A DNA stretch of 64,000 bases, from NCBI GenBank assembly GCA_016182845.1, contig JACPFT010000005.1, forward strand, positions 62,001 to 126,000, written 5' to 3'. Below the pieces are notes generated by a model, which saw nothing but the letters and a program-made list of their open reading frames with translations, was not told the origin of the DNA and did not search any database. Below, piece by piece: positions 38,035 through 45,406 of this stretch (the first letter of the stretch is position 1; each line of letters begins with the position of its first letter). A program made the position numbers and the translations under genes. The DNA comes from Gammaproteobacteria bacterium. Its GTDB lineage: Bacteria; Pseudomonadota; Gammaproteobacteria; Enterobacterales; Permianibacteraceae.

Positions 38035-38934
38035 CTATACCCTGGGTAAATCGGCGCCCAGCCAACGCCCATCCCCGGACGGGTCGAGGACCAGTGCCTG
38101 TGCGCCCAGCGCGCACAGGAGTCGATCGCAGTCCGGATCCAGGAAGACCAGTTTGGTCAGCGCGTCGGCGAGCATGCAGGTCGGCGCGAACACCGACACG
38201 CTGTGCTCGCGGTGCATCGGATGTCGGCTCTGCGGGTTGACGATGGCGCTACGCCTGCCGTCGCGGCTCTCGACATCCCGGTTGATGAAATAACTGGCGC
38301 TGGTCGCCAGCGCCGGGGCGCGCATCGCCAGCGTTTGGGGCGTGCCGGTTTCGAGAGCCGGGTGACGGACAGCGACGACATGTCCCTGCCAATGACTGAG
38401 CCTAAGGTCGCCGCCGGCATTGACGAGAAGGCGCAGCTCGCCGCCAGCCGCGCCCGGTTGGAGACTTTCCAAGACTCCGAGGGCGCGATCCACCGCATAA
38501 CCCTTGGCGATGCCGCCGAGATCCAGGAGCAGCTCCCGCTCGAAGCGGATTTCGTCCCCTTCGATCCGGATGTCCTTCCAGCAACCGCGGGCCGTCTCGG
38601 GCATGGCGCCGGCGTGGGGCAGCAGCCCCTGGGCGATCAATTCCGGGGCGATGCTGACGTCGAACAGCCCGTCGCTGAGGCGGCTGAGGTAAAGGGCTTG
38701 CCGCAGGACTTCCAGGGTTTGTGCCGACACGCGGCAAGGTCGCCGGAACGCCTGCCGGTTGAGGCGGGACAGCTCGCTGTCCTCCCGGTGAAAGCTCATC
38801 AGGGCATCGACCTGGGCGATCGCCTGGAATGCCGCCTCGCTGATGGCGAGCAGCCGGTCGCGATCCGCATCGCCCCAGACCGCGATCTCGACGAAGGTGC
38901 CCAAGAGCGGCTTGCAGCGGGATAAGCGGTTCAT
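38035..38934 (-). CDS. apbE: ApbE-family FAD:protein FMN transferase
   Basis: A 299-residue ApbE. It lacks an obvious lipoprotein signal; the N-terminus MNRLSRCKPLLGTFVEIAVW enters the domain directly. Motifs: MSFHREDSELSRLNR for FAD contact, ELLLDLGGIAKGYAVDRAL near the centre, NAGGDLRL and TSASYFIN. ApbE transfers FMN from FAD to a Thr in a (D)xxx(S/T)GA(T/S) motif. The target is almost certainly the FMN-binding protein encoded 17 bp upstream in the same operon. The longer frame to 39108 overlaps that gene and is not used. Confidence 0.93.
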   Translation of the reverse strand: MNRLSRCKPLLGTFVEIAVWGDADRDRLLAISEAAFQAIAQVDALMSFHREDSELSRLNRQAFRRPCRVSAQTLEVLRQALYLSRLSDGLFDVSIAPELIAQGLLPHAGAMPETARGCWKDIRIEGDEIRFERELLLDLGGIAKGYAVDRALGVLESLQPGAAGGELRLLVNAGGDLRLSHWQGHVVAVRHPALETGTPQTLAMRAPALATSASYFINRDVESRDGRRSAIVNPQSRHPMHREHSVSVFAPTCMLADALTKLVFLDPDCDRLLCALGAQALVLDPSGDGRWLGADLPRV

Positions 38935-38951
38935 CGCGATGAGCGTCCGGA

Positions 38952-39491
38952 TTACAGCTTGCTGAGCACCAGTTCCCAGGTCGCCGTCAGCCGGTTGATG
39001 CCGTCGGTGATATGCCGGCAGGAGAGGGTCGCGCCGGAAATGTTCTGGATATCCCGGTCGAGTTCTAGTTTCGGCGCGGAACCCTTGCCGAGGAACTGCG
39101 CCAGCCACTTGGGACTCCTGACCTCGGAACCGTAAGTTTCGCGGTAGGTCAGGATCTCGATGCCCTTGACCTTGCCTTCCGCAGTCAGGGCTACGGCGAG
39201 GTCGATGTTCTCATGCTTGCCGATTACCTCGTCCAGGATAAACCAGCCATTGCTGTCGGTTTTCCATGCCCGTAATTCGGCATTGCGAACCCGGACGCCG
39301 GAAGTCTCCGCGATGGCGCTCCGCTGCGCTTCGGTCAGGCTCACCGCGACCGGGTGCAGCGGGCTGTCACCCCAGAGCAGTTTCTGTGCTTCCGCCGCGC
39401 TCAGGTAGCTCGTCGCCCGGACGCGCGCGATCGGCAACAGCGCCGAGGCGAGCGCCAGGCCCAGGCTCTTTGCAAACCCTCTTCGCTTCAT
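38952..39491 (-). CDS. Exported FMN-binding domain protein (ApbE substrate)
   Basis: A 179-residue protein with a signal peptide (residues about 1-27, RRGFAKSLGLALASALLPIA; the arginine pair precedes the hydrophobic core but is not a full Tat motif). The NosR/RnfG-type FMN-binding domain contains GKVKGIEILTYRETYGSEV and, near the C-terminus, DIQNISGATLS, where Thr155 of SGAT is the expected site of covalent FMN attachment. It sits between an outer-membrane protein gene and apbE, so FMN is presumably loaded after export. Confidence 0.9.
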   Translation of the reverse strand: MKRRGFAKSLGLALASALLPIARVRATSYLSAAEAQKLLWGDSPLHPVAVSLTEAQRSAIAETSGVRVRNAELRAWKTDSNGWFILDEVIGKHENIDLAVALTAEGKVKGIEILTYRETYGSEVRSPKWLAQFLGKGSAPKLELDRDIQNISGATLSCRHITDGINRLTATWELVLSKL

Positions 39492-39510
39492 GGCTAGGCC
39501 TTCCCCGTCT

Positions 39511-40455
39511 TCAGATTTCGTAGGCGAAGGAAAGGCCGACGTGCATGCGCTCATGCTCGTCCCAGTTGCGGCCGTCGCGGCTGAAGGAGAACTTGGAACC
39601 GCCGCCGCGAACCTGCCAGAGCACGCCCGCCGTCACCCACCATTCCTTCGCGGCGTAATGCAGGGTCGGCCCGAAATAATTGCCGTATTGATGGCGGCTG
39701 CCGACCCGGAAATCGCTGAGGTCGAAGCTGGAGCGATCCAGCTCCGGGTTGAACTCGCCCTCTTCCTGAGGGTTCAGGTAGTCGGATTGATGGCGGAAAT
39801 CCAAGCCGACAAACCACTGCGGCGCGAAGCGGTAGGCGATGCCGGCGGAGAAGTCCAGGGCGATTTCCTCCTCCAGGACGCCGGGCGATTTACGGCGCTC
39901 GAATTCGATCTTGGGCGTCACGGCCAGCATCAGGGTGTCGTCGAGGAAATTCTTCTGCGTGTAGAAGGCCAGAACGAAGGAGTCCTGATCGATGTCGGCG
40001 CCGTCCAGGCGGTATTTTTCGCGCTTCTCATAGCCCAGGCCCACCGAGAAACCCAGGGCGTCCTTGTAGGTGCTCAGCAGGTTGTATTTCATGCTGAGTT
40101 CATAGCCGCCGAATTGCGTGTCCTTGAAGCGTTCGCCTTCGCCGCCCTGGGTTTCGAACATGGGGTTCAGTTCCGGGTCGTCCACGGCGTAGTCGTGATG
40201 GAAAACCAAGGCCTCGGCGCTGATGGTCAGGCTGTCGGTCAGCCCGTATTCGATTTCGGGGCGGATGTCGTGGAAGGCGTAATCGCCGGAGTTCTTGTCG
40301 AGGCGGGAGATGCTGCTCAGCTTGGCTTCGACCCGGCCCTCGGGCAAGGTATCGGCGCCCTTGGTGTAAACCCACAGGCCCTCATCGGCCAGGGCAGCGG
40401 TGGACAGCAGCGAACCGATGCAAACGGCGGGAAACAGGGGGGCGATACTTCTCAT
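39511..40455 (-). CDS. Outer-membrane beta-barrel protein
   Basis: A 314-residue protein with a signal peptide (about residues 1-24, APLFPAVCIGSLLSTAALA). The mature part is a series of amphipathic strands with aromatic belts (YELSMKYNLLSTYKDALGFS, GIAYRFAPQWFVGLDFRHQS, YFGPTLHYAAKEWWVTAGVL) and a C-terminal SFAYEI, an acceptable final strand. It resembles, from memory, the DUF6662 type of protein, but that needs a domain search. It is the first gene of an operon with the FMN-binding protein and apbE. Confidence 0.7.
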   Translation of the reverse strand: MRSIAPLFPAVCIGSLLSTAALADEGLWVYTKGADTLPEGRVEAKLSSISRLDKNSGDYAFHDIRPEIEYGLTDSLTISAEALVFHHDYAVDDPELNPMFETQGGEGERFKDTQFGGYELSMKYNLLSTYKDALGFSVGLGYEKREKYRLDGADIDQDSFVLAFYTQKNFLDDTLMLAVTPKIEFERRKSPGVLEEEIALDFSAGIAYRFAPQWFVGLDFRHQSDYLNPQEEGEFNPELDRSSFDLSDFRVGSRHQYGNYFGPTLHYAAKEWWVTAGVLWQVRGGGSKFSFSRDGRNWDEHERMHVGLSFAYEI

Positions 40456-40576
40456 TCGATGGAGGTCCTGTGGCTGAGGCTCTTGTGTCCGTTCAGGGGG
40501 CTGCAAGAGCGATCATGGGTATCGGATTGCGCCGATTTGATCTCGGGCAAGCTGGAAAGCCGATTATTCTATTCGG

Positions 40577-40594
40577 AATGCGAATCAATATCAA
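40577..40594. promoter_or_regulatory. Possible Fur box
   Basis: AATGCGAATCAATATCAA resembles gammaproteobacterial Fur sites of the form AATGCGAATnnTTATCA. It lies in the divergent region between the barrel operon and the cytochrome gene, 30-47 bp upstream of a good -10. Four or so mismatches to a typical site, so tentative. Confidence 0.35.
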
Positions 40595-40599
40595 ACGGG

Positions 40600-40629
40600 T
40601 TAGCGTTACGTCCATTGCCCTGATATAAT
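40600..40629 (+). promoter_or_regulatory. Extended -10 promoter for the small cytochrome gene
   Basis: A perfect extended -10 (TGATATAAT, 40621-40629) is preceded by a weak -35-like TTAGCG at 18 bp spacing. The start codon lies 69 bp further on. Confidence 0.55.
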
Positions 40630-40697
40630 GCCGACCCCAAGCCGCTGCCCTGGCCAGCCAGTCCCGTGGGCGGCGCAGGCAATACGATGAGGCAGTT

Positions 40698-41159
40698 ATG
40701 TTGAGGCGGGCGTCGCGGCTTTCCCTGTGGTTCATGGCCGCCGGGCTCATCGTCACCGGCTTGGCGCTCTGGTGGATGCGCCCGGCGACGCCGGATGAGT
40801 TTCCCCACCCCTGGACCGGCGCGATGCGGGCCTGGCATGGCGCGTTCATGATGGCGGCCTTGGTCCAGTTCGGTTACATGCTGGCCGAACACATCGCTCC
40901 CAGGCTGCGCGCCTGGCGCAGGAACTGGGACGGCCTGCTGCATCTGGTGCTGTGGCTGCTGCTCGGGATCAGCGGATTTTTCCTGTACTACCCCAGTGAG
41001 GCCTTGGACGCCCTGCTGCCCATGGGCGATGTGCATCTGGCCGCCGGATGCGGGCTGGGCCTGTTCTTCCCCTTGCATGTCGGACGCTGGTTGAAACGCC
41101 GGCGGCGCGCGCGTTTACCGGTGCTATTTCGTTCGGCAAGCCGGGGGCTCGACGGCTGA
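40698..41159 (+). CDS. Small four-helix membrane protein, probable b-type cytochrome
   Basis: A 153-residue protein with four hydrophobic helices (about 8-26, 44-64, 80-98 and 108-127). Histidines at 37, 47, 65, 82, 113 and 127 lie at or near helix ends; pairs such as His47/His113 or His65/His127 could ligate b-type hemes. The layout resembles the small cytochromes (DUF4405-like) found beside flavinylated proteins. The C-terminus is strongly basic (RWLKRRRRARL). It is divergent from the barrel/FMN/apbE operon. Function as the quinol-side donor to the FMN protein is an inference. Confidence 0.6.
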   Translation: MLRRASRLSLWFMAAGLIVTGLALWWMRPATPDEFPHPWTGAMRAWHGAFMMAALVQFGYMLAEHIAPRLRAWRRNWDGLLHLVLWLLLGISGFFLYYPSEALDALLPMGDVHLAAGCGLGLFFPLHVGRWLKRRRRARLPVLFRSASRGLDG

Positions 41160-41351
41160 ACGCGGCCTGCCATCGAAGGCGAGGGCTAGTGGTCTACGTG
41201 GCGCGTCCGTTCCATGACTTCGATAGAGTCCGCTGAGGTGGCGTCAATCCAGACGGGATGGCCGTGGCCATCCTAGTTCTCCGGCAAGGTTGAGTTCGCG
41301 AAGACCTAAGCAACATCGAGGTAAGCTCGATGGCTGACGACAGTATGGCGT
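41160..41351. other. Gene-free stretch
   Basis: No coding potential is seen. TAGTGGTCTACG at 41187-41198 resembles the terminal repeat of the MITE-like element at 41624 and could be the remnant of another end. Confidence 0.4.
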
Positions 41352-41640
41352 TTGCCGAGCGCTCACTTCAGTTTCGGCTTCCATTTCCCGACCGTCAGCG
41401 AAAAGTGGTTCAGCGGAACGACGGCGCGCGGCAGCGTCGTCGGCAACCCGGACTCACAGCCTGGCTGTGGATCTGGGGCTGCATTGGCAGGGCGAGCGGG
41501 CTTCTGCATCGGCCCAGTTCTTCGTCCAGGATGTCGAGGACTACATCGAGCGCGTACGCCTGGCTCCCGAAGTTTGCAGCTATAGAAACCTGGGGAGCGG
41601 GCGCATCCAGGGCATCGAGGCGCTAGTGGTCCATGCGGGG
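41352..41640 (+). pseudogene. TonB-dependent receptor remnant
   Basis: Two short frames together give a recognisable late-barrel segment of a TonB-dependent receptor. Frame 1 (from about 41370) reads FPTVSEKWFSGTTARGSVVG and then NPDS; after a small deletion and frameshift near 41455, frame 2 reads SLAVDLGLHWQGERASASAQ, then FFVQDVEDYIERV and SYRNLGSGRIQGIEA. Receptors of this type have GNPDLxPE joining these blocks, so the LxPE part is lost. Both ends are missing, and the right end is cut by a MITE-like element. The receptor class (iron or heme) cannot be told. Confidence 0.55.
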
Positions 41641-41785
41641 TGTGGTTAACGTCAGTTCGGATGCATGAAGCCCTGAGACAAGGCGCCGCGACGAGTCATA
41701 GCAGGGCTATGGCGAGGAGCGGCAACGCTGTATCAGGGTTTCAGGCGCCGAAATCATGTAACCGAACTATCCGCATGGACCACTA
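41624..41785. mobile_element. MITE-like palindromic element (162 bp)
   Basis: The ends TAGTGGTCCATGCGG and CCGCATGGACCACTA are perfect 15-bp terminal inverted repeats, and similarity continues inward (GTGTGGTTA against TAACCGAAC). The interior is also an imperfect palindrome centred on CATAGCAGGGCTATG near 41700, with GAAGCCCTGAGAC opposite GTATCAGGGTTTC. The outermost TA could be a target duplication as in Tc1/mariner/IS630-type movement. It holds no gene. It borders the receptor remnant and provides the TAG stop of the adjacent histidine kinase. Confidence 0.75.
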
Positions 41786-43072
41786 TTGCCCGGGAAAGGG
41801 CTGAACGATACCCTCTTGCGCACGGCGCCAGCGCAAACGGAACGAGGCGCCGCCCCAGGCGCTGGTGCCAATGGTCCACTGCGCGCCGCTGTCTTTCAGC
41901 GCCAGATCGGCGATCGCCAGTCCCAGACCGACGCCGCCTGTGCGGCGGTTTCGGTGTTTATCGACGCGGAAGAACGGTTGCCTCACCCACACGCGGGCCT
42001 CTTCGGGGATGCCGGGGCCGTCGTCGCTGATCTCGAGTTCGATGTCGTCGCCGAGCCGCGTCAGGGTGACGGCGATATGCTGGTGGGCGTATTTGCAGGC
42101 ATTTTCGAGCAGGTTGCTGATGGCGCGCTCCAACAGCGGGCGATTGGCGTGTACCTGACAGCGGACGAGATTCATCTGTATGCGGGCGTCATCCAAACGC
42201 AGCGCGCACTGCGCCAGCAAGCGATCCAGCGCCACGTCCTCGCGCGGAGGCGGCGTCTGAGCCAGTCGCAGGCGCGAGAGCGTCAGCAAGTCCTCCATCA
42301 GCTGCGACAGCTCGGTCAGCGCGCCATCCATGTCTTGCAGCAGTTCGGGAATTTCCTGCGGGCGCGGTGTCGTGAGCGCCATGTCTAGCGCCAGCCTCAG
42401 CCGGGTGAGCGGGGTGCGCAGTTCATGGTGAATGGCGGCGGTGAGCACGTGGTTCTCCTGGGTCTTTTCCGCCAGCGCGCGCGTCATACGGTTGAGATCG
42501 TCGTGCAGCTCGATGAAGGCGGCGACGCGAGGCGCCGGTAGTGCGGCGCTGTAATCGCCATCGGCAACCCGCTGCGCTTGCCGACGAATTTCGTCGAGAT
42601 GACGATAAAGCCGGTGCGTCAGCGCATAGAGCAAGGCCGCCAGCACGGCGTAAATCGCCACATAGCCGCCGTAATAGGCCCATAGTGCGCCGGGCTCGGC
42701 ACGGTCGTACACGCTGAAGCTCAAAGCGCGCGTTGAATCGAACGGCGCAATCACATCGAGTCGGTCCTCGGCCTCGGTGATGACTATCGTCTTCACGTAA
42801 GCCTGCGCCATGCCCGGCTCCAGTGGTATGACGTCGAGCTCGATTTCATCGTTCTCATGCAATTGCCTGCGCCACCAGGCGAGGCTTTCCGCCTCGTCGC
42901 TCCCCCGTTCGATGTCGCGACGGATCGCTTGCGTCAACATGGCGGCATACTTCAGATATTCGTCTTCGACTTCACTGGCATAAAACCCGTTGTTGAAATA
43001 GTCGACTGCCAGCATGGCGGCCAGCAGGCAGCCCATGATCAGGCTGTAAACCTGCAGAAAGAAACGCTTCAT
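41783..43072 (-). CDS. Sensor histidine kinase
   Basis: A 429-residue membrane kinase. Helices at about 8-26 and 135-152 flank a periplasmic sensor domain of about 105 residues; a HAMP-like linker follows (LDEIRRQAQRVADGDYS). The H-box is AAIHHELRTPLTRLR with His216 as phosphoacceptor; the ATPase has the N-box SNLLENACKYA, the G1 box ISDDGPGIPEE and G2 GGVGLGLAIADLA. Layout resembles RstB-like kinases. It follows the response regulator gene by 4 bp. The stop TAG is formed by the end of the MITE-like element, so the last residues (GIVQPFPGQ) may have been altered by its insertion. Confidence 0.93.
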   Translation of the reverse strand: MKRFFLQVYSLIMGCLLAAMLAVDYFNNGFYASEVEDEYLKYAAMLTQAIRRDIERGSDEAESLAWWRRQLHENDEIELDVIPLEPGMAQAYVKTIVITEAEDRLDVIAPFDSTRALSFSVYDRAEPGALWAYYGGYVAIYAVLAALLYALTHRLYRHLDEIRRQAQRVADGDYSAALPAPRVAAFIELHDDLNRMTRALAEKTQENHVLTAAIHHELRTPLTRLRLALDMALTTPRPQEIPELLQDMDGALTELSQLMEDLLTLSRLRLAQTPPPREDVALDRLLAQCALRLDDARIQMNLVRCQVHANRPLLERAISNLLENACKYAHQHIAVTLTRLGDDIELEISDDGPGIPEEARVWVRQPFFRVDKHRNRRTGGVGLGLAIADLALKDSGAQWTIGTSAWGGASFRLRWRRAQEGIVQPFPGQ

Positions 43073-43076
43073 GCCA

Positions 43077-43751
43077 TTAATCCTTGACGAAGATGTAGCC
43101 GAGCTGCCGCAGCGTTCGGATCAATTCACGGTCGGTATACGCGGCAAGTTTTTTGCGCAATTTCGACACGCGCATGTCGATGGAACGATCGAGGCCGTCG
43201 TATTCCTTGCTGCGCAAGCGCTGGAACAGGGCGTCGCGAGGCACGACGTCGCCGGCACGGCTGGCCAGCGCCCATAACAGCTCGAACTCGGACTCGGAGA
43301 GTTCGACGGCCTCGTCGTTGAAAAACACTCGGCGGCGCTCGCGTTCGATGCGGAAGCCGGCGATCGCTAGCGCCGAGGGGGGAGGCGCATGACGGCGCAG
43401 CAAGGCGTGTATGCGCGCTTTCAGGACATGGGGCCGGATGGGCTTGTGAAGGAAATCGTCGACCCCGGCGTTGAGTGCGATGACTTCCTGCATCTCGCCT
43501 TCGTGGGCGGTCAGCATCAAGACTGGTCCGAGGTAGAACTCGCGCAAGGCCAGGCAGGTTTCGACGCCATCCATGCCCGGCAGCATCAGGTCCAGCACGA
43601 TTAGGTCCGGCGGCGCGGCGCGCGCCAGGGCAATCGCCTCTTCCCCGCAGGCGACGGTGGCGGTTTCAAAACTCTCGCCTTCGAGGAACTGGCGGAGCAG
43701 CTTGGCGATGGGGGCGTCGTCTTCGACGACGAGTAGGCGGGCGAGGGGCAT
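43077..43751 (-). CDS. OmpR-family response regulator
   Basis: A 224-residue regulator. The receiver domain has the acidic pair in VVEDDAP, the phosphoacceptor Asp54 in LIVLDLMLPGMDG, Thr in LMLTAHE and Lys in FLHKPIRP. The C-terminal winged helix shows SESEFELLWALASRAGDVV and DRSIDMRVSKLRKKL. The upstream extension of the frame to 43937 is not expected in the family, so ATG 43751 is chosen. It precedes the kinase gene and is divergent from the amine oxidase. The regulated genes are unknown. Confidence 0.94.
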   Translation of the reverse strand: MPLARLLVVEDDAPIAKLLRQFLEGESFETATVACGEEAIALARAAPPDLIVLDLMLPGMDGVETCLALREFYLGPVLMLTAHEGEMQEVIALNAGVDDFLHKPIRPHVLKARIHALLRRHAPPPSALAIAGFRIERERRRVFFNDEAVELSESEFELLWALASRAGDVVPRDALFQRLRSKEYDGLDRSIDMRVSKLRKKLAAYTDRELIRTLRQLGYIFVKD

Positions 43752-43981
43752 GCGTCTTGGGGTCCTGTCGGTAATCCGAACGCCGCTGCAGGCCGCTGTC
43801 AGCGGAAGCGTCTCGACGGGATAGTGTAGGTCATCCGGCCTCGTCTTGGCCGTCCGGTGACATAGGGTGACAATCGGATGGCGGCGGTGACGGAAGTGGC
43901 CGATGCGTGCGGGTAGACTGGCCCCGGAACGAAGCACGCGAGCCTAGGGCTTCGCCAGCACACAACACCCCGGAGATGCGG

Positions 43982-45406
43982 ATGAACATGAAACGGCGAG
44001 ACTTTTTGGCAGTGACCGGCGCGGGTTTTGGGGCGATGCTGCTGACCGGCTGTGCGGGGGGCGGTGGCGAGGATTCCGCCGCCTCGCCCGGTTTGCCGGA
44101 TACGCCAGGCCCGACGGTTCCGACCGGCAGGATTCTCGTGATTGGCGCCGGCATGGCCGGCCTCGCCGCCGCGCGAAAACTGCGTGATGCCGGAAAAGAG
44201 GTGGTGGTCCTGGAAGCTCGGGAGCGTATCGGCGGTCGCATTTTCACCTCGCCCAGGTGGAACGATGCGAAGGTCGATCTCGGCGCGACTTGGATTCACG
44301 GCGATGGCGCGGACAATCCGGTTGCCAGGCTTGCGCGCCAGATCCGCGCGCGTCTGGCGACGACAAGCTTCGACAGCAGTGAAACCTTCGATACCAACGG
44401 GATGAAACTGGGCGCCGACGCCTTGGCCCAGCTCGAAGCGTTACAAGCTTCGCTCGAGGCGGCCTTGACCTCGGCGCAAGACGCGAGTGCCGACATATCG
44501 GTGCAAGATGCCGCGCGCAATGGCCTGGGCTACGCGAGCCGATCCCGTGCGGAGCGGGATCGGCTCGACTTCCTGGTCAACACGACGATCGAGCACGAGT
44601 ACGCCGGCGAGGCCACGCGCCTGTCGACGCTCTGGTACAACAGCGACGAGACCTATGACGGCGACGAATCGTTGTTCCTCGACGGCTACCAGGTATTGAC
44701 CAACCACCTCGCGCAGGGGCTGGATATCCGACTGGGCCAGGTCGTCAATGCCATTTCCTACGCGGCGGACGGCGAGACTGTCGTCACCACCAACCAGGGG
44801 CGTTTCACCGCTCAGCGCGTCATCGTCACGCTGCCGCTGGGCGTGCTGCAGTCCGGGTCGGTAAGCTTCTCGCCGCCGCTGCCGAGCGGTAAGCAGACCG
44901 CTATCAACGGCTTGGGCATGGGAGTGCTCAACAAATGCTATCTGCGTTTCCCTTATGCATTCTGGGACGTCGACGCTGACTGGTTGAACTATATTCCCGA
45001 CGGTGCCAAGTATGGTCAGTGGGCCGAGTGGGTTAGTTTTGTGCGTCCTACGGGTCAGCCTATCCTGCTGGGTTTCAACGCAGCGGCGTTCGGTCGCGAG
45101 GTTGAGGGCTGGAGCGACACGGATATCGTCAATAGCGCAATGGCGACCCTGCGCACGATGTACGGCGATGCGATCCCATACCCCAACGACTGGGTGATCA
45201 CCCGCTGGGATTCCGATCCCTATGCGCGCGGGGCCTACTCGTGCAATGTACTGGGTTCCACGCCGGACATGCGTACCGATCTGGCGCGTAGCGTCGGTGG
45301 CTGTTTGTTTTTCGCCGGCGAGGCCACCGAGCGTCTGCATTTCCAGACGGTGCATGGCGCCTACGAGTCTGGCCTGCGGGCGGCGGATGAGATACTGGCG
45401 TTGTGA
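43982..45406 (+). CDS. Flavin amine oxidase with Tat and lipobox signals
   Basis: A 474-residue flavin-containing monoamine oxidase-like protein. The N-terminus MNMKRRDFLAVTGAGFGAML has a twin-arginine motif (KRRDFL) and then a lipobox LTGC, suggesting folded, FAD-loaded export and lipid anchoring. The FAD-binding motif is VIGAGMAGLAAARKL, followed by VLEARERIGGRI; the C-terminal flavin motif is FFAGEATERLHFQTVHGAYE with SG. Substrate could be a polyamine or aromatic amine. The ATG at 43982 has CGGAG six bases upstream; ATGs at 43976 and 43988 are alternatives. Confidence 0.88.
   Translation: MNMKRRDFLAVTGAGFGAMLLTGCAGGGGEDSAASPGLPDTPGPTVPTGRILVIGAGMAGLAAARKLRDAGKEVVVLEARERIGGRIFTSPRWNDAKVDLGATWIHGDGADNPVARLARQIRARLATTSFDSSETFDTNGMKLGADALAQLEALQASLEAALTSAQDASADISVQDAARNGLGYASRSRAERDRLDFLVNTTIEHEYAGEATRLSTLWYNSDETYDGDESLFLDGYQVLTNHLAQGLDIRLGQVVNAISYAADGETVVTTNQGRFTAQRVIVTLPLGVLQSGSVSFSPPLPSGKQTAINGLGMGVLNKCYLRFPYAFWDVDADWLNYIPDGAKYGQWAEWVSFVRPTGQPILLGFNAAAFGREVEGWSDTDIVNSAMATLRTMYGDAIPYPNDWVITRWDSDPYARGAYSCNVLGSTPDMRTDLARSVGGCLFFAGEATERLHFQTVHGAYESGLRAADEILAL

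Follow-up and report, generated by a model that had tools for sequence, protein, structure and literature searches.

Flavinylated proteins of the cell envelope are known from bacteria, yet this part of redox biology is still incomplete. A 2021 survey (Meheust et al.) distinguishes ten flavinylated systems, each defined by key genes (PMC8238504), and Huang et al. (2024) add the DUF4405 and FezC cytochromes (PMC11334425). Here we analysed a 64,000-nucleotide stretch of DNA, referred to throughout as the window, from a Gammaproteobacteria bacterium of the Permianibacteraceae (assembly GCA_016182845.1, contig JACPFT010000005.1, positions 62,001 to 126,000 of the forward strand). An earlier reading of the letters alone, which we call the original prediction, had proposed that it holds an unnamed four-part flavin electron-transfer set consisting of an outer-membrane barrel, an exported flavin mononucleotide (FMN)-binding protein, ApbE and a tiny membrane protein. 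All four genes are present at 38035-41159, encoding a DUF6662 barrel, an FMN_bind protein with an SGAT site, an ApbE-family protein and, divergently, a four-helix membrane protein. Judged by gene content and order across genomes, this four-gene set is a real conserved module. With moderate confidence, we read it as a system that moves electrons through flavin in the cell envelope. Most likely it reduces ferric iron (or ferric chelates) and is induced when iron is scarce. The module thus adds a defined four-gene system with a likely iron role to the known set, and would give a first functional context to DUF6662 and to a small unnamed cytochrome family.

The four genes form a collinear module

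The barrel, FMN and ApbE genes share the minus strand and are transcribed in that order, separated by gaps of 19 and 17 nucleotides (Table 1). In the window the cytochrome gene lies divergently on the plus strand, across the promoter region from the other three, which is the sole difference from the other loci. Of 398 genomes sampled throughout Pseudomonadota, 11 (our own included) encode DUF6662, and none of 58 order-level relatives does. In all 11 the barrel gene is followed by FMN_bind and ApbE genes on the same strand, with the gene for the four-helix protein coming after ApbE outside the window. Searching 84,980 species genomes with an alignment of the FMN protein gave at least 543 relatives. 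The 80 loci that were retained come from Pseudomonadota, Verrucomicrobiota, Acidobacteriota, Omnitrophota, Chlamydiota and Rokubacteria. They were found by patterns around the GKHE and SGAT motifs of the FMN protein, and motif conservation among them is partly by construction, while the loci of the 11 genomes picked out by DUF6662, our own included, are independent of these patterns. The first 11-12 loci also supplied the sequences for the cytochrome and barrel profiles, and matches in those loci are not independent.

Across 90 loci the cytochrome gene was present in 89, ApbE in 88 and the barrel in 78, and the order was invariably barrel-FMN-ApbE-cytochrome. Co-occurrence of the four families in other genomes, on which the original prediction was to stand or fall, proved very strong: all four are found in 76 loci, and the strict collinearity of these rules out chance adjacency. 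No further conserved operon member appeared across the loci beyond an alternative barrel; ribosomal and rpo neighbours in Verrucomicrobia were rejected as members, as they reflect lineage synteny. NCBIfam offers no specific name for any of the four window proteins. PF01794, PF03929/PF16357 and PF12801, the domains that PMC8238504 names as keys to its MsrQ-, PepSY- and NapH-like systems, had no match in them. In the papers open to search we found no description of DUF6662 or of the four-gene combination, and the predicted set stands as a module conserved in several phyla and unnamed in that literature. The supplementary tables of PMC8238504 and PMC11334425 may contain such loci unassigned.

Table 1 Features of the module and its promoter region in the window
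Feature	Position	Strand	Basis
ApbE-family protein, 299 residues, no signal peptide	38035..38934	-	PF02424; active-site and tree comparison
Exported FMN_bind protein, 179 residues, Tat-like signal, NISGATLS (Thr155), GKHE (His93)	38952..39491	-	PF04205, alignments
DUF6662 outer-membrane protein, 314 residues, signal peptide	39511..40455	-	PF20367; start in list of open reading frames 40506, likely ATG 40455
Sigma-70-like promoter TTGATA-17-TAGAAT facing the barrel operon	40566..40594	-	1 found against 0.1 expected
Fur-box-like site CGGAATGCGAATCAATATC, 13/19, shared intergenic region	40574..40592	+	Consensus match
Four-helix membrane protein, 153 residues, predicted di-haem b-type cytochrome	40698..41159	+	Histidine conservation, AlphaFold, fold matches

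The small membrane protein is a predicted di-haem cytochrome

The original prediction had drawn attention to six histidines at helix ends of the small protein (37, 47, 65, 82, 113 and 127). Every one of the 86 complete homologues keeps four of these, His47, His65, His113 and His127; the four remaining homologues are truncated. His37 and His82 vary, and a functional set of six was therefore rejected. In the AlphaFold model (predicted local distance difference test, pLDDT, 88.9) helices span residues 4-27, 40-71, 77-97 and 108-151. The conserved residues fall there into two histidine pairs on parallel membrane-crossing helices, His47/65 on the second helix and His113/127 on the fourth, as a di-haem b cytochrome would have them. 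At the level of sequence, this four-histidine pattern is as expected for two b-haems. Since the positive-inside rule puts both termini and the 66-76 loop in the cytoplasm, His47 and His113 would ligate a haem on the periplasmic side and His65 and His127 one on the cytoplasmic side. The predicted path from a b-type cytochrome to an FMN carrier thus fits both the conserved pattern and the models.

The best Foldseek match of the model was the cytochrome b subunit of E. coli hydrogenase-1 (HyaC; E 0.067, probability 0.99, TM 0.55). VIA-align gave Z 12.1 (root-mean-square deviation, rmsd, 2.3) for a designed di-haem bundle and Z 11.4 for HyaC, values that unrelated four-helix bundles can also reach. 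Against the b561 family (PF01292) the window protein scored 24.2 bits, below the cut-off of 30.1, and 26 of 66 module cytochromes matched that family at E<=0.01. An earlier guess that the protein belongs to DUF4405 (PF14358) had to be given up, as the window protein has no match to that profile at E up to 1 and has four helices, not six. Weak DUF4405 matches (E<=0.01) in 19 of the 66 make it a distant relative at best. One of the 66 gave a weak match to NCBIfam MsrQ.

The FMN protein carries a variant of the flavinylation motif

The FMN protein of the window matches PF04205 with 44.5 bits (cut-off 22). As predicted, it is an exported protein with an intact SGAT, at Thr155, behind a signal resembling those of the twin-arginine (Tat) pathway (MKRRGFAK...ARVRA). 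SGAT is present in 91 of 91 FMN proteins, including every locus found independently through DUF6662, and GKHE in 90 of 91. Because both motifs were part of the scan patterns, only the DUF6662-found loci count as independent motif evidence. The near-invariant GKHE (His93 in the window) is a candidate ligand or docking site. Tat-like signals were seen in 3 of the 91 proteins (those of the window, L023 and L056), the others having signals of Sec type, and Tat export was rejected as a general rule.

The full flavinylation motif is D-x-x-[S/T]-G-A-[S/T] (PMC12052999). The module proteins depart from it, with an Asp 5 residues before the Ser and an invariant Asn at Ser-2. Their nearest solved sequence relatives are RnfG and NqrC, which have the FMN_bind domain and the SGAT threonine in common with them. 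RnfG and NqrC are subunits of a multi-subunit ion pump, however, whereas the module FMN protein is not part of one; it has N-I-S-G-A-T without an Asp at the canonical position, and no membrane anchor is expected after signal cleavage.

The module ApbEs form a clade that has largely lost the catalytic histidine

The window ApbE matches PF02424 with 147.8 bits (cut-off 25.6). In V. cholerae ApbE, His257 of the Ser-His-Asp triad has been called absolutely conserved, and the H257G mutant lost flavin transfer (PMC5655446). In the window protein this position is Ala, the Thr at Asp+4 is Lys and the flavin-stacking Tyr/Trp is His, with the Ser and Asp of the triad retained. We compared 88 module ApbEs with a non-exhaustive background of 48 sequences from class-level genomes only. 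The canonical His is present in 6 of the 88 (absent in 82) against 48/48 in the background. The Asp+4 position is Lys in 86/88 against Thr in 44/48, and the stacking position is His in 81/88 against Trp or Tyr in 43/48. The triad Ser and Asp (Ser241 and Asp285 in V. cholerae) are kept in 84 and 87 of the 88.

In most module ApbEs the start codon lies shortly upstream of RxxPLLGT and no hydrophobic N-terminal segment is found, so that by sequence they look cytoplasmic; a hydrophobic N-terminus is present in 38 of the 48 background ApbEs. In a tree, all 88 form one clade with no intruders (support 0.83). They share with the canonical enzymes of V. cholerae, E. coli and S. enterica the fold family, the GGIAKG and AGGD motifs and both Ser241 and Asp285, but differ in the loss of His257, the replacements at Asp+4 and at the stacking position, the missing signal peptide and their separate position in the tree. 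Cytosolic ApbEs are known, such as that of Klebsiella, which serves a soluble fumarate reductase (PMC12052999); in the literature searched we found no description of one with an exported partner.

The original prediction of ApbE as the enzyme that flavinylates the carrier thus holds as to family, but not as to the simple route, given the missing signal peptide and the lost histidine. The clade would either flavinylate by a different chemistry or do something else with flavin adenine dinucleotide (FAD). The second option, that these homologues bind or hydrolyse FAD and are no flavin transferases, the FMN protein holding its FMN non-covalently or being modified by another, exported ApbE, would account for the three replacements. 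Other ApbEs with polar residues at the stacking site tend towards FAD pyrophosphatase activity, yet both ApbE classes transfer FMN when substrate is present (PMC4767422). The genome of the window does encode a second ApbE, canonical and exported. In 6 of 10 module genomes, however, PF02424 is represented solely by the module ApbE and PF04205 solely by the module FMN protein, and no fewer than two of the six (L021 and L028) have an ApbE without the catalytic His. The retained Ser and Asp and the near-invariance of the new residues also argue that the site is under selection, and we regard a role outside flavin transfer as unlikely. The clade challenges the view that His257 is essential and conserved without exception, a view open to direct test where the sole ApbE of a genome is a His-less one.

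Promoters and neighbouring genes point to iron

The original prediction had named no physiological role; the evidence on it, drawn from promoters and gene neighbourhoods, points to iron. In the window, the Fur-like site falls within the promoter predicted for the barrel operon, between its -35 and -10 hexamers, and the match of the site is not significant alone (shuffle p about 0.08). Across the loci, Fur-type sites of at least 10 bits were found in 19 of 90 module promoters, against a mean of 2.6 and a maximum of 12 for 60 shuffled palindromes, none of which reached 19. Within the same loci, the count was 19/91 for the module against 38/842 for the other upstream regions (Fisher p 3e-7). Fur-family genes lie near the module in five loci (two Pfam-checked), and a ferritin-family gene, called bacterioferritin by similarity, in five (one Pfam-checked). 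In one locus (L018:6547-11425, minus strand) an imelysin-DHOR-imelysin-DUF1513 run, DHOR being a di-haem oxidoreductase, immediately precedes the module and shares its strand.

These data bear on a further alternative, in which the module would serve a redox target that is not iron (copper, an organic or aromatic acceptor, or quinones or oxidants to be detoxified) and the Fur link would be incidental or lineage-specific. Most loci have no adjoining iron gene, and the nearest solved barrels include the COG4313 channel 4rl8, as such a role might have it. The enrichment of Fur sites against two separate controls and the Fur, ferritin and imelysin neighbours speak against it, and we think it improbable.

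A remnant of a TonB-dependent receptor barrel lies at 41330-41650 (plus strand) of the window, between the cytochrome gene and a kinase/regulator pair. The 60-residue fragment matches PF00593 with 27.8 bits and suggests a decayed receptor beside the module.

The outer-membrane barrel can be replaced

The barrel had been guessed to belong to DUF6662, rightly so, as it matches PF20367 with 79.9 bits (cut-off 27). Its AlphaFold model has 12 strands (pLDDT 87.3). The nearest solved folds by Foldseek/VIA are FapF (5o65; Z 21.7, rmsd 3.4, 250 residues) and the COG4313 channel (4rl8; Z 21.6, rmsd 3.0, 241 residues). Both are 12-stranded barrels of similar fold; identity to either is about 10%, and the DUF6662 barrel differs from them in its context, a flavin electron-transfer operon. 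The COG4313 channel family has been linked with aromatic compound pathways.

An unrelated, Porin_O_P-like barrel accompanies the module in 10 loci. It adjoins the FMN gene in L043, L051, L053, L087 and L107 and comes after the cytochrome gene in L031, L092, L103, L105 and L110. When three of these barrels were compared with the Porin_O_P profile, one scored above the cut-off, one just below it and one had no match. Because an unrelated barrel occurs with the module in these loci, a barrel of some kind seems to be a working part of it. An extracellular electron conduit, with the flavoprotein docked in or under the barrel as in a porin-cytochrome complex with flavin in place of haem and serving solid or external acceptors, would suit the constant co-encoding of the barrel (78/90) and its replacement by another, but a 12-stranded barrel is too narrow for a folded flavoprotein of about 18 kDa, the structurally unrelated replacement porin suits a diffusion channel better and the module has no multihaem cytochrome, all of which makes a conduit very unlikely.

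An orphan second DUF6662 copy was also seen (L025:4895-5809, minus strand), without FMN or ApbE genes; the same genome has a full module at L026.

Proposed mechanism

A scheme for the ferric reductase that we favour can be drawn from what the sequences hold directly: gene content, order and conservation, the histidine pattern, the enrichment of Fur-type operators, and the lack of both a signal peptide and the catalytic His in ApbE. Haem binding, flavinylation, the direction of electron flow, the ferric substrate and the barrel as entry channel are what the scheme proposes. When iron is low, Fur repression would be lifted. The ApbE-family enzyme would attach FMN from FAD to the SGAT threonine of the FMN protein; since the enzyme has no signal peptide, this should take place in the cytoplasm before export. 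The FMN protein would then be exported, by its Tat-like signal in the window and by a Sec-type signal in most relatives. The four-helix protein, with two b-haems stacked across the inner membrane, would pass electrons to the periplasmic FMN protein from the quinol pool, as the original prediction had it, or from a cytoplasmic donor. Finally, the 12-stranded barrel would admit a small ferric chelate or electron acceptor, to be reduced by the FMN protein.

Several points weigh against this scheme. About 80% of the promoters have no clear Fur box, as judged with a crude consensus that is unsuited to non-proteobacteria, and iron genes adjoin a minority of loci only. No quinol site or partner enzyme that would identify the electron donor or acceptor was found in the module. 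With His257 lost, flavinylation may not follow the known route, as mutation of this residue abolishes the activity of V. cholerae ApbE. It is also awkward that an ApbE in the cytoplasm should act on a substrate exported by Sec.

A bolder form of the proposal is that the module represents a widespread, unrecognised class of envelope system that transfers electrons for iron. Its ApbE clade would flavinylate the partner protein while this is still in the cytoplasm, by a catalysis that differs from that of every characterised ApbE, with a His at the stacking site and a Lys replacing the presumed metal-ligand Thr. Taken together, we put this forward tentatively, as somewhat less than an even chance.

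Neighbouring genes in the window

Beside the module, at 41783-43937 on the minus strand, are genes for a histidine kinase and an OmpR-type response regulator; two-component genes recur at a few other module loci. The gene at 43907-45406 on the plus strand encodes a flavin amine oxidase (PF01593), whose signal is probably of the Tat lipoprotein type. Further away, positions 1506-22000 hold a type VI secretion cluster, in which TssF, Hcp and TssM/IcmF were assigned by Pfam and the remaining components by eye.

Comparison with known flavinylated systems

Two described groups come close to the module. The DUF4405 and FezC cytochromes encoded with ApbE (PMC11334425) are likewise small membrane b-cytochromes with four central histidines, encoded beside apbE. 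They have six transmembrane helices and occur with Flavodoxin_4 and a flavin transporter, whereas the module combines a cytochrome of four transmembrane helices with FMN_bind and an outer-membrane barrel. The PepSY-like/DUF2271/DUF4198/ApbE clusters (PMC8238504) also join a haem membrane protein, a secreted flavinylated protein and ApbE; they are Fur-linked, iron reduction has been proposed for them and some include an outer-membrane receptor. The module differs from these clusters in that its cytochrome has no PepSY match, the presumed flavinylation substrate is FMN_bind and not DUF2271, the outer-membrane component is a dedicated DUF6662 or porin barrel in place of a TonB receptor, and the ApbE has neither signal peptide nor catalytic His. 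By analogy, then, the overall plan resembles that of the PepSY/DUF2271/ApbE iron-reduction clusters, carried out with different parts.

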